Shown here piece by piece: positions 23,619 through 27,138 of a stretch of DNA of 64,000 nt. Numbering within the stretch: position 1 is the first letter of the stretch; each line of letters begins with the position of its first letter. The notes below the pieces were generated by a model. It saw only the letters and a list, made by a program, of their open reading frames with translations, made no database searches and was not told the DNA's origin. This DNA is from Frigoribacterium endophyticum (lineage in GTDB: Bacteria; Actinomycetota; Actinomycetes; Actinomycetales; Microbacteriaceae), in contig NZ_JAAOYV010000001.1 in the NCBI RefSeq assembly GCF_011759585.1, positions 372,001-436,000 of the forward strand. The letters are read 5' to 3'. A program made the position numbers and the translations under genes.

Positions 23619-24578
23619 TCAGGGCGCGGTCGGCAGCACCGCGGCCCAGAGGTGGAACAGGGCGTAGGCGCGGAAGGGCGACCACGGGGCCGAGGCCGCC
23701 TCCGCCTCCTTCGTGGTCGCCCCGCCGAGCACCCGGCGCAGCACGAGGTCGCCGGCCGGCCACGCGTCGCGGTCGCCGAGGGCGCGCACGGCGAGGTACT
23801 CGACCGTCCAGGGGCCGATGCCCGGCACGGCGAGCAGCCGTCGTCGGGCGTCGGCGAGGTCGACGTCGGGCGAGACCACCAGGCCGTCGGCGACGACCGT
23901 CGCCAGGGCCGAGAGCGTGCGTGCCCGGGCGTTGGTCACGCCCACCGCGGCGCGCAGCTCGTCGACGTCGACGGCGGCCAGCGCCTCCGCGCGCGGGAAG
24001 CGCCGGAGGCCCGTGCCGGGCACGTCGACGCCGTGCGCGGCGACGAGCCGCCCGGTGAACGTGCGGGCCGCGGCGAGCGAGACCTGCTGCCCGAGCACGG
24101 TCATCACCGCCGTCTCGAAGCCGTCGGGGCTGCCGGTGACGCGGATGCCCGGCCGGGCCCGCACGAGCGGGCCCAGCACCGGGTCGGCGCCGAGCGCGGC
24201 CTGCACCGCGCCGGTGTCGCCGTCGAGGTCGAGCCAGCGCCGGGTCAGCGCCGCGGCGCGGTCGAGGTCGGCCGGGCCCAGGTCGACGCCGTCGGCGGGC
24301 ACGACGTCGACCTCGACGACGTCGGGGCCGAAGTGCACGTCGAGCCGGCCGAGCCGAGCGGCCCCGTCGACCCCGGCCCCGCCGAGGTCGACGACCCGGG
24401 AGTGGGTCGAGGCCGCCACGTCGGTCAGCTCGGCGCCCGGCACGCTGTGCGCGGCGAGCAGGCCGACCGCGTGGGCCGGGTCGTAGTCGCCGTCGACGGC
24501 GAGCGACAGGCGACGAGCGCGGGAGTCGCGGGTCGGCTCCGCCGCGGAGCCCCCCGGGGCCGTGCCCCCGGCCGTCAC
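23619..24578 (-). CDS. alkA: AlkA-type DNA-3-methyladenine glycosylase II
   Basis: This 319-aa base-excision enzyme has an AlkA N-terminal region followed by an HhH-GPD domain: SPDGFETAVMTVLGQQVS near 150, then LLAVPGIGPWTVEYLAVRALGD near 250-270, where the hairpin and catalytic Asp region lie. It removes alkylated purines from DNA. There is no Ada N-terminal methyl acceptor domain. The GTG start overlaps the stop of tag by 4 bp, so it is the last gene of the alkylation-repair operon. Confidence 0.9.
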   Translation of the reverse strand: MTAGGTAPGGSAAEPTRDSRARRLSLAVDGDYDPAHAVGLLAAHSVPGAELTDVAASTHSRVVDLGGAGVDGAARLGRLDVHFGPDVVEVDVVPADGVDLGPADLDRAAALTRRWLDLDGDTGAVQAALGADPVLGPLVRARPGIRVTGSPDGFETAVMTVLGQQVSLAAARTFTGRLVAAHGVDVPGTGLRRFPRAEALAAVDVDELRAAVGVTNARARTLSALATVVADGLVVSPDVDLADARRRLLAVPGIGPWTVEYLAVRALGDRDAWPAGDLVLRRVLGGATTKEAEAASAPWSPFRAYALFHLWAAVLPTAP

Positions 24579-25174
24579 GGCGTCTCCGCCCACACCCCGG
24601 ACGACCCGCGCCGGTGGCTGTCGACGAGGTGGGTGTCGACGATGCCCGTCGCCTCCATCAGGGCGTGCATGGTGGTCGGGCCCACGAACCGGAAGCCCAC
24701 GGACTTCAGGGCGCGCGACAGGGCGACGCTCTCCGGCGAGGTCGTCGGCACCTCGGCCGCCGTGGCCGGGCGGGGCGTCTCGGCGGGCCGGAACGACCAG
24801 ACGAGGTCCACGAGCCCGCCCGCGTCGCGCAGGGCGACGGTGGCGCGGGCGTTGGCGACGGTCGCGTCGACCTTGAGCCGGTTGCGGACGATGCCCGCGT
24901 CGGCCATCAGTCGTGCCCGGTCGTCGTCGTCGAACGCGGCCACGACGTCGGGGTCGAAGTCGCGGAACGCCGCCCGGAAGGCAGGCCGCTTGCGCAGGAT
25001 GGTCGCCCACGACAGCCCCGACTGGAACGCCTCGAGGCTCAGCCGCTCGAACAGCCCCCGCTCGTCGCGGACGGGCATGCCCCACTCGGTGTCGTAGTAC
25101 TCGCGCATCAGGGGGTCGACGGCCGCCCAGGCGGGGCGGGCGAGCCCGTCGTCGCCGATCACCACGTCGCTCAC
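24575..25174 (-). CDS. tag: DNA-3-methyladenine glycosylase I
   Basis: This 199-aa enzyme excises 3-methyladenine from DNA. Tag signatures are clear: YYDTEWGMPVRDERGLFERLSLEAFQ near 25-50, SGLSWATILRKRPAFR, and FRFVGPTTMHALMEATGIVDTH near 165, including the residues around the zinc-snap His. GTG start. It overlaps the neighbouring methyltransferase and alkA genes by 4 bp each, implying translational coupling. Confidence 0.95.
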   Translation of the reverse strand: MSDVVIGDDGLARPAWAAVDPLMREYYDTEWGMPVRDERGLFERLSLEAFQSGLSWATILRKRPAFRAAFRDFDPDVVAAFDDDDRARLMADAGIVRNRLKVDATVANARATVALRDAGGLVDLVWSFRPAETPRPATAAEVPTTSPESVALSRALKSVGFRFVGPTTMHALMEATGIVDTHLVDSHRRGSSGVWAETP

Positions 25175-25755
25175 GGTGTCGCCTCCAGGTCGATCAGCAG
25201 GGCCTTGGCCTCGGGGCCGCCACGGTAGCGGCCGGCCGCGCCGTCGCTCCGCACCACGCGGTGGCACGGCACGACGAGCGGCAGCGGGTTGGTCGCGCAG
25301 GCCGTGCCGACGGCCCGCACGGCGCGGGGGCTGCCCGCCGCCGCGGCGACGGCGGCGTAGCTCGCCGTCCGACCGTAGGGGATCTCGGGCAGGTGCTCGA
25401 GCACGGCGAGCTGGAACGCCCGCGAGAGCCGCCGGTCGAGCGGCAGGTCGAAGGCGCGACGGCGGCCGGCGAAGTACTCGTCGAGCTGGCGAGCGGCCGC
25501 GTCGAGCCGGGCCGGGGCCCGCAGCACGCGCGGGCTGACCGTCGTCGCGAGTCGGTCGAGCACGGCGTCGTGCCCCTCGACCTCGAAGGCGACCCGCACG
25601 AGGCCGACCTCCGTCGCGGCGAGCAGGAGGCGGCCGACGGGGGAGTCGAGGGTGCTCCAGGCCACGTCGAGCACGCCGGCGTCGGCCGCGCCGGCGGCGA
25701 GCCGGGCGCGCAGCACGGCGAGGTCGACCTGCTCGGCGGGGGTCGGGTCGGTCAC
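25171..25755 (-). CDS. ogt: Methylated-DNA-protein-cysteine S-methyltransferase (copy B)
   Basis: This 194-aa suicidal repair protein transfers O6-alkyl groups from guanine to its own cysteine. The active site VVPCHRVV is near residue 160, with upstream YGRTASY and the Arg-finger region RAVGTACATNP. There is no Ada N-terminal DNA-binding part. GTG start. It lies third in the operon, directly after the sigma-factor gene with a 4-bp overlap. Confidence 0.94.
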   Translation of the reverse strand: MTDPTPAEQVDLAVLRARLAAGAADAGVLDVAWSTLDSPVGRLLLAATEVGLVRVAFEVEGHDAVLDRLATTVSPRVLRAPARLDAAARQLDEYFAGRRRAFDLPLDRRLSRAFQLAVLEHLPEIPYGRTASYAAVAAAAGSPRAVRAVGTACATNPLPLVVPCHRVVRSDGAAGRYRGGPEAKALLIDLEATP

Positions 25756-26306
25756 GAGGGTCCTCCGGGTCGGCGACGGCGGGGTGCGGGCGGGAGCGCC
25801 CGGTGCGGGTCCGAGGGCGGCGCCGGGGGCGGGGGCGGGGGCACCAGCGCCGTCCGCAGCGCGGCGACCCCGTCGCTCGCCGCCCGGCGGGCGGCGTCGT
25901 GGCTGACCCCGGTGGCCTCCGAGACCTCGCGGTGGCTGAGCCCGGCGAGGTGGTGGCCGACGACGGCGACGCGCTGGCGGTGCGGCAGCCCGCGGACGGC
26001 GTCGAGCAGCTCGTCGTCACGGGCGAGCACCTCGTCGAAGGGCCGGGGTGCGGGCGGCTCGGGCAGCGTCTCGACCGGGAGCGCTCGGCGGGCCTGCCCG
26101 CGCAGCACGTCGAGGGCCTTGCGGCGCGCGACGGTCACGAGCCAGGCCTCGACGTTCGTCCCCGGCGGCAGCCCGGGCCAGGCGACGAGCGCGGCGAGGA
26201 AGGTCTCCGACCAGGCGTCGTCGGCGTCGGCCGGCGGCAGCAGGGCACGGCAGACGCGCAGCACGGTGACCCCGTGCTGCTCGACGGCGCGGTCGAACGG
26301 GCCCAC
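25752..26306 (-). CDS. ECF-type sigma-70 family RNA polymerase sigma factor
   Basis: This 184-aa protein has sigma region 2 (DADDAWSETFLAALVAWPGL...EAWLVTVARRKALDVLRGQARR, residues 26-75) and region 4 (LPHRQRVAVVGHHLAGLSHREVSEATGVSHDAARR, about 105-140). A Pro/Arg-rich tail ends the protein. No anti-sigma gene is adjacent. It starts with GTG 1 nt after the upstream methyltransferase stop and overlaps the downstream one by 4 bp. Its position inside an alkylation-repair operon suggests it controls the response to alkylating damage, but that is inference. Confidence 0.88.
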   Translation of the reverse strand: MGPFDRAVEQHGVTVLRVCRALLPPADADDAWSETFLAALVAWPGLPPGTNVEAWLVTVARRKALDVLRGQARRALPVETLPEPPAPRPFDEVLARDDELLDAVRGLPHRQRVAVVGHHLAGLSHREVSEATGVSHDAARRAASDGVAALRTALVPPPPPPAPPSDPHRALPPAPRRRRPGGPS

Positions 26307-26307
26307 G

Positions 26308-26910
26308 TCAGAACAGCCGGCTCTCGCGCCGCTCGGCGGGCTCCTCGAGGGCCAGCAGGAACCTCTTGCGCTCCAGCCCGCCCGCGTAGCCGGTGAGGGC
26401 CCCGCCGGCGCCGACCACCCGGTGGCACGGCACGACGATGCTCAGCGGGTTCAGCGCGTTCGCGGCGCCGACGGCCCGGGCCAGCCCGACCCCGCCGAGG
26501 CCCACGGCGAGCTGGCCGTAGGTGCGGGTCTCGCCGTGGGGGATCGTGCGGAGGGCCGCCCAGACCCGCTGGCGGAAGTCGTCGCCGCGCGGCGCGAGCG
26601 GCAGGTCGAAGGCCGTCCGCTCGCCGGCGAAGTACTGCCCGAGCTGCCGGGCCACCTCGCCGAAGTCGCTCGCGCCGGTGCCGACGTCGGAGCGCGCGCC
26701 CAGGGAGTCGCGGGTCGGCCCGCGCCGGTGGCCCTCGAACCACAGGCCCACGAGCCCGTCGACGCCCCCCGCGACGGTCAGCAGGCCCACGGGCGTGCTC
26801 GTGGTGGTGTGCACGACCGTCGCGTCGGGGGCCGCGGTCGGGGCTGCGTCGTCCGTGCCCCTGCCCGTGCCCGTGGTGCCCGCTCCGCGCGCGCTGCCGG
26901 TCTCCGTCAC
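26308..26910 (-). CDS. ogt: Methylated-DNA-protein-cysteine S-methyltransferase (copy A)
   Basis: This 200-aa protein is a second O6-alkylguanine methyltransferase and the first gene of the operon. It has VVPCHRVVG near residue 160, HGETRTYGQLA and ARAVGAANALNP, so all key residues appear intact. Its N-terminus is a Gly/Thr-rich stretch of about 35 residues absent from copy B. The GTG at 26910 has GAGGAGA upstream; the longer frame was rejected for lack of conservation. A TAGCAT box (26938-26933) may be the -10 element. Confidence 0.93.
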   Translation of the reverse strand: MTETGSARGAGTTGTGRGTDDAAPTAAPDATVVHTTTSTPVGLLTVAGGVDGLVGLWFEGHRRGPTRDSLGARSDVGTGASDFGEVARQLGQYFAGERTAFDLPLAPRGDDFRQRVWAALRTIPHGETRTYGQLAVGLGGVGLARAVGAANALNPLSIVVPCHRVVGAGGALTGYAGGLERKRFLLALEEPAERRESRLF

Positions 26911-27042
26911 GGTCGTCTCCTCGCCTCTGCCGATGCTACCCACGCTGCAGACGCGCGAGAGGGGGCGGATGTGAGGTGGCCGTCGCGAGTTCGTCCCCCG
27001 ACCGGTGGGCGAGTGCACCGACCGACCTGGTAGACAAGCTGG

Positions 27043-27058
27043 TGCACCCTCGGGTGCA
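27043..27058. repeat. Perfect 7-bp-arm palindrome in the acyP-ogt spacer
   Basis: TGCACCC (27043-27049) and GGGTGCA (27052-27058) flank a 2-nt centre. It lies in the 270-nt non-coding spacer after the acylphosphatase gene and upstream of the alkylation operon. It may be a short terminator hairpin or a regulator site. Confidence 0.5.
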
Positions 27059-27138
27059 GCCCGGTCCGGGGACTCCACGCTGTCGGGTGCGTGCGAGCTC
27101 CCGGGCCGGGTCCCGGCACGCGGGCCCTCGCCGACGGT

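Follow-up and report, generated by a model that had tools for sequence, protein, structure and literature searches.

Gene organization of the alkylation-repair operon

We characterized a five-gene operon on the minus strand of a 64,000-nucleotide (nt) stretch of the Frigoribacterium endophyticum genome (contig NZ_JAAOYV010000001.1, positions 372,001 to 436,000; hereafter the window). Its second gene encodes an extracytoplasmic function (ECF) sigma factor and is enclosed by genes for two O6-alkylguanine methyltransferases, here called A and B. The host genome comprises 3.3 Mb on six contigs. From the promoter onward, the features are as follows, with positions counted within the window.

26947 to 26976, minus strand: ECF-type promoter CCTCAC-N17-CGTCTGC, identified by upstream alignment; −35 element at 26976 to 26971, −10 element at 26953 to 26947, 36 nt before the A start codon
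26308 to 26910, minus strand: methyltransferase A (mgtA), Ogt-type O6-alkylguanine methyltransferase of 200 residues with a PCHRV motif; PF01035 (109 bits) and PF02870
25752 to 26306, minus strand: ECF sigma factor of 184 residues with regions 2 and 4 and a DADD motif; PF04542 (48 bits) and PF08281 (32 bits), each exceeding its cut-off
25171 to 25755, minus strand: methyltransferase B (mgtB), Ada-C-like, 194 residues with a PCHRV motif and an N-terminal extension of about 30 residues; PF01035 (104 bits) and PF02870
24575 to 25174, minus strand: tag, 3-methyladenine DNA glycosylase I; PF03352 (218 bits) and TIGR00624 (222 bits, just missing the cut-off of 232.5)
23619 to 24578, minus strand: alkA, 3-methyladenine DNA glycosylase II; PF06029 (53 bits) and PF00730 (42 bits), both above the cut-off

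The sequence-only reading had described this gene order and its tight junctions, and both are borne out by the open reading frame (ORF) coordinates and Pfam matches: a 1-nt gap separates the stop codon of A from the GTG start codon of the sigma gene, and the remaining three junctions are 4-nt GTGA overlaps. It had also placed the sigma factor between two O6-alkylguanine methyltransferases, which agrees with the presence of PF01035 and PF02870 in both A and B. Its third structural claim, that an Ada domain and an anti-sigma gene are missing, stands as well. The Ada zinc domain (PF02805) has zero matches in the whole host genome, and no anti-sigma domain was found by Pfam in the five operon proteins and three flanking genes, namely the upstream acylphosphatase gene, the downstream and convergent GH3 glycosidase gene, and an aldo/keto reductase gene. 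An AraC-type domain was likewise not found by Pfam in any of the five operon proteins.

The sigma factor has the ECF architecture, being short and containing only regions 2 and 4, and it matches the sigma70-ECF model TIGR02937 with 61.7 bits (cut-off 42.9). We take its acidic DADD motif to mark the place of region 2.2. By bit score, the best NCBIfam match of A is the Ogt model PRK10286 (below the model cut-off), while that of B is PRK15435, the C-terminal half of Ada, with 105.5 bits (also below the model cut-off, and above its Ogt score). AlkA matches PRK10308 with 120 bits, below the model cut-off. Four proteins with PF01035 are encoded in the host genome. Besides A and B, there is one at C1:904741, and the fourth, at C2:814960, is short and taken here for an alkyltransferase-like protein.

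The sigma factor and methyltransferase B form a conserved module

We found a sigma orthologue in 26 of 40 relatives, the host genome included (E ≤ 1.4e-25); of the other 14 genomes, 4 contain weaker matches and 10 contain none at 1e-8. B directly follows the sigma gene in all 26 orthologue-bearing relatives. A phylum-wide sample of 296 genomes contains 51 sigma loci in 50 genomes (E ≤ 5.5e-30), and B comes next at 51 of 51. Twelve additional loci lie at the edge of the group, where B is present in six and absent in six. When 98 pooled sigma loci were scored with one sigma profile, B came next on the same strand at all 83 loci with at least 108.5 bits and at none of the 15 loci with at most 97.3 bits, a split that is favoured by building the profile from B-linked sigma factors. 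The 15 sigma loci without an adjoining B, all low-scoring, are L027–L030, L035–L039, L156, L159, L160, L164, L166 and L167. Duplicates (L040, L031, L032) were removed from the locus counts, and two loci where a contig end cuts B (L060, L062) were counted for adjacency and left out of the tree described below. When the B start codon closest to the end of the sigma gene is chosen, the two genes share 4 nt in 27 of the 28 loci of one set and in 22 of the 29 of a second.

The persistence of this adjacency in relatives throughout the phylum shows that the arrangement is more than chance. The sigma–B pair is a real, widely kept regulatory module. The sequence-only reading had proposed a search for the same gene order in other Actinobacteria, with loss of synteny in relatives counting against it; sigma–B synteny is kept across the phylum.

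The phylogeny of the methyltransferases separates B from its homologues. In a FastTree phylogeny that also included 46 other methyltransferases, every one of the 55 B proteins falls into a single clade (support 0.894), and the 17 non-B methyltransferases from 13 sigma-less relatives all lie outside of it. The tree omits short alkyltransferase-like proteins, and two of the 29 further methyltransferase loci that were retrieved (L127, L128) yielded no ORF under the PCHR filter. Across 47 of 47 aligned B sequences, the acceptor motif CHRV (C164, H165, R166) is invariant, together with R147, Y133 and N156, and P163 is conserved in at least 90%. We assume that C164, H165, R166, R147, Y133 and N156 have the roles of their counterparts in the human enzyme. 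Since the acceptor and catalytic residues are invariant, B is expected to remain a functional suicide methyltransferase. Its only Pfam domains are PF01035 and PF02870, with no known anti-sigma domain and no other DNA-binding regulator domain. The best-scoring solved structure matches B from profile position 38, placing the N-terminal stretch 1–37 outside the match.

Methyltransferase A is distributed differently. It directly precedes the sigma gene in 14 of 16 congeners, and at L020 (genome G018), L042, L044 and L045 it is a close upstream neighbour on the same strand; L002, L003 and the majority of loci from other genera have no A beside the sigma gene. In the tree, A-type proteins intermix with methyltransferases unlinked to the sigma factor and form no sigma-linked clade. 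A is not a constant part of the module; B is its conserved acceptor partner. Together with A, tag and alkA are variably present across the sigma loci. In L042 (141–869) and L047 (2582–3298), the gene directly after B encodes a PF09859 oxygenase, a family that Pfam associates with damaged DNA, and this gene shares 4 nt with the end of B; therefore, other types of repair enzyme join the operon.

The same position after B is occupied in L045 (627–899) and L049 (2561–2827) by a small PF02805-like protein that covers the domain from position 19 or 20 to 64. By eye, this Ada fragment within a sigma–B operon does not have the cysteine that is the methyl acceptor in Ada.

A conserved ECF-type promoter precedes the operon

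Aligned upstream regions from 15 congeners contain two conserved blocks, ACCTCAC and CGTCT, spaced 17 nt apart and located near the first gene. The sequence CGTC is typical of the −10 element of ECF promoters. The exact 13-position pattern CCTCAC-N17-CGTCTRC occurs at one site in the 3.3-Mb host genome, before the operon, and is likewise the sole exact match in the window. With at most one mismatch, the pattern is present in 22 of 27 loci; L026 has three mismatches, and the exact motif also occurs in L008, L010, L012 and L013 at positions that the choice of start codon excluded from the 22 of 27 (L012 by the genome scan alone). The shorter core CTCAC-N17-CGT was then counted in 82 B-linked loci, excluding L025, whose sigma gene is cut by a contig end. 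It is exact in 57 and has at most one mismatch in 73, compared to 0.5 and 7.6 expected from shuffled sequences. The 15 sigma loci without B have no exact core and one with a single mismatch. In the remaining nine of the 82 loci, the core has two or three mismatches, consistent with either a differing promoter or a motif outside the stretch taken.

Based on the position and conservation of this motif, the sigma factor probably recognizes CCTCAC-N17-CGTCTRC, and by recognizing its own upstream promoter it would make the operon self-activating, a well-supported prediction.

We also considered a wider regulon. Exact promoter sites number 26 in the 40 genomes. Of these, 16 belong to the operon and 10 lie elsewhere, equal to the 10 matches of a reversed control pattern; the host genome contains six one-mismatch sites versus four for the control. 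We treat the off-operon sites as chance, reject a wider regulon and claim no second target. The exact-motif regulon is probably this operon alone.

Two further features of these upstream regions were observed. At loci where the sigma gene comes first (for example L017, L022 and L024), the −10 box lies 5–11 nt before the sigma start codon, so near that the transcript probably has little or no leader. Separately, a conserved hairpin at about 27055–27112 (minus strand), with the loop ACCCGACAG, lies between the acylphosphatase gene and the operon promoter. Its core occurs once per genome in 14 of 16 members of the genus and nowhere in the remaining 24 relatives, and one G-C pair of its stem is changed to A-T on both sides. 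Folding covered the stretches from the window and L007. The hairpin has no Rfam match and is perhaps the acylphosphatase terminator or a regulatory element.

The module and Ada tend to occur in different genomes

Among the 40 relatives, the sigma factor occurs in 26 genomes and PF02805 in seven, with no genome shared. Counted by genus, PF02805 is present in 0 of 11 sigma-bearing genera versus 7 of 14 others (Fisher P = 0.007). Across 149 genomes of the order, 49 have the sigma factor, 51 have PF02805 and six have both, compared to about 17 expected (P = 4e-5); sigma–B adjacency was checked for those of the 49 matches shared with the 40-relative and 296-genome sets. In genera g16, g21 and g24, both the sigma factor and PF02805 occur, never in the same genome; genomes with both were found in g15 (one), g23 (one) and g243 (four). 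The effect is weaker at the phylum level: near-full Ada domains (67 genomes) are present in 6 of 50 sigma genomes versus 61 of 246 others (P = 0.03), and PF02805 matches of any length (106 genomes) in 11 of 50 versus 95 of 246 (P = 0.02).

These distributions suggest that the sigma module tends to replace Ada, yet can coexist with it. The sequence-only reading had suggested that the sigma factor fills the role of Ada. This suggestion stands in part, strengthened by the avoidance of Ada and by the ECF-type promoter, from which the sigma factor very probably drives the operon.

Correspondence with ECF122 and other known systems

A 2022 review (PMC8999054) describes ECF122 as a group without an anti-sigma gene, with 6-O-methylguanine DNA methyltransferase neighbours and of unknown mechanism, and gives a Cellulomonas protein, WP_057211282.1, as its example. 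The pairing of a sigma factor with a methyltransferase is already published as ECF122 and is not new. Our sigma factor is probably a member, an assignment based on the group's description and on Cellulomonas orthologues. Both have an ECF sigma factor, a methyltransferase neighbour and no anti-sigma gene, and we found no difference between them. None of the 83 high-scoring sigma loci lacks the methyltransferase neighbour; anti-sigma genes were sought in the window's operon and its three flanking genes. Two loci from Cellulomonas, the genus of the group's example (L033, L034), carry sigma orthologues with 60% and 58% identity, each followed by B. A full-text literature search for ECF122 returned this review as its sole match. 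No experiment on a sigma/alkylguanine-methyltransferase pair appeared in the titles or abstract openings among the matches listed, in a search that left most subscription literature outside. The promoter and context details reported here may already be part of the founding classification of ECF122.

A second group of B-linked sigma factors (L050, L052, L056, L059, L063, L065, L069 and others) does not have the DAWSETF and RVCRA motifs, and several of its loci have CTCACG...CGTT upstream. One genome, G298, contains two sigma–B pairs (L067, L136) and may show how partner specificity is kept.

The operon resembles the E. coli Ada and AdaA/AlkA types in that a methyltransferase and an alkA-type gene share a likely self-amplifying operon and a suicide methyltransferase is the likely sensor. 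Unlike the Ada response, PF02805 is absent from this genome and an AraC-type domain from the operon, and the transcription step uses a sigma factor with an ECF-type promoter. As in canonical ECF sigma/anti-sigma pairs, an overlapping and co-inherited partner follows the sigma gene and a conserved ECF-type promoter precedes it; here, however, the partner resembles a soluble DNA-repair enzyme without a known anti-sigma domain. A precedent for a methyl-triggered switch is Caulobacter Cada2, where methylation of the PCHR cysteine in the methyltransferase domain switches transcription (PMC10957082). The switch proposed below would likewise use a PCHR active-site cysteine. Cada2 fuses its methyltransferase to DNA-binding domains (PMC10957082), whereas here the methyltransferase and sigma factor are separate proteins.

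Methyltransferase B as a candidate anti-sigma sensor

We favour, with a probability of roughly 0.55, an alkylation-damage operon that is controlled and self-activated by its own ECF sigma factor, with B acting as a gating anti-sigma sensor. A role for the sigma module in alkylation repair is well supported by sequence, and moderate support exists for B as the module's putative damage sensor. According to the proposed mechanism, unmethylated B would bind the sigma factor and hold it inactive. Methylation of the PCHRV cysteine by O6-methylguanine would change the shape of B and release the sigma factor, which would then increase the synthesis of B, A, Tag and AlkA. Once lesions are gone, fresh unmethylated B would shut the loop. 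B would be both a repair enzyme and an anti-sigma sensor, and two proteins would do what Ada does with one. The stoichiometric form of this mechanism has slightly less than an even chance: each methyl group moved to B would free one sigma factor, lesions would be counted by stoichiometry, and the system would turn off as unmethylated B accumulates.

Several observations weigh against this proposal. The AlphaFold2 model of B, built with five sequences, has a mean predicted local distance difference test (pLDDT) score of 44, too low to examine a sigma-binding surface. The Fisher tests on Ada avoidance ignore kinship among genomes, and the sigma factor and Ada do coexist in 6 of 149 genomes of the order and in 6 (near-full domains) or 11 (all matches) of the 296 phylum genomes. 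The adjacency of sigma and B could also reflect shared function alone.

The same adjacency, clade and active-site data would also fit if methylated B were a co-activator that binds and helps the sigma factor or RNA polymerase. Both Ada and Cada2 are activated by methylation (PMC10957082), and the Ada model gives B a better score than the Ogt model does. The sigma factor, however, retains its acidic DADD motif and so shows no sequence sign of being intrinsically inactive, and the Pfam scan of B gave no further DNA-binding regulator domain. We prefer an anti-sigma role because B occupies a position typical of anti-sigma genes, since a gene that overlaps the end of an ECF gene often encodes an anti-sigma factor; because the acidic motif is retained where region 2.2 would lie; and because a circuit that produces its own inhibitor turns itself off. 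We consider co-activation improbable, and only marginally less so a system without any protein gating, where the sigma factor is limited by its amount (through autoregulation and perhaps an upstream trigger) and B is a carried repair gene. The conserved promoter alone could yield such a positive loop, but B is retained at every high-scoring sigma locus while mgtA, tag, alkA and the PF09859 oxygenase vary, and it belongs to a dedicated clade although the host has another full-length methyltransferase elsewhere.

Two other sensors were considered and dropped. Cys19 of the sigma factor is invariant in a 15-row alignment of close orthologues, as would be expected if the sigma factor itself sensed alkylation. 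In a 47-row alignment, however, Cys19 is outside both the invariant and the 90% columns, and sigma factors of the second clade have other residues there even though B is still present, which makes direct sensing very unlikely. Gating by A is the least probable explanation of all: its place directly before the sigma gene in most congeners, and just upstream of it at four other loci, is offset by the loci where no A stands beside the sigma gene (L002, L003 and the majority of those from other genera) and by the lack of a sigma-linked A clade.

Implications for alkylation responses in actinobacteria

To the published description of ECF122, this analysis adds the constancy of B as a function of sigma score, the B clade, the ECF-type promoter, the avoidance of Ada and the inconstancy of A. 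A constant partner, an invariant acceptor site and a conserved promoter bring the mechanism of ECF122 within reach of a small reconstitution that needs the sigma factor, B, a single promoter and RNA polymerase. Should B gate the sigma factor, alkylation responses would be inducible in many Ada-less actinobacteria, and the anti-sigma factors known so far would gain a further kind, a suicide repair enzyme. If the anti-sigma reading is true, the module would be an Ada-independent design for the adaptive response that is widespread in the phylum.

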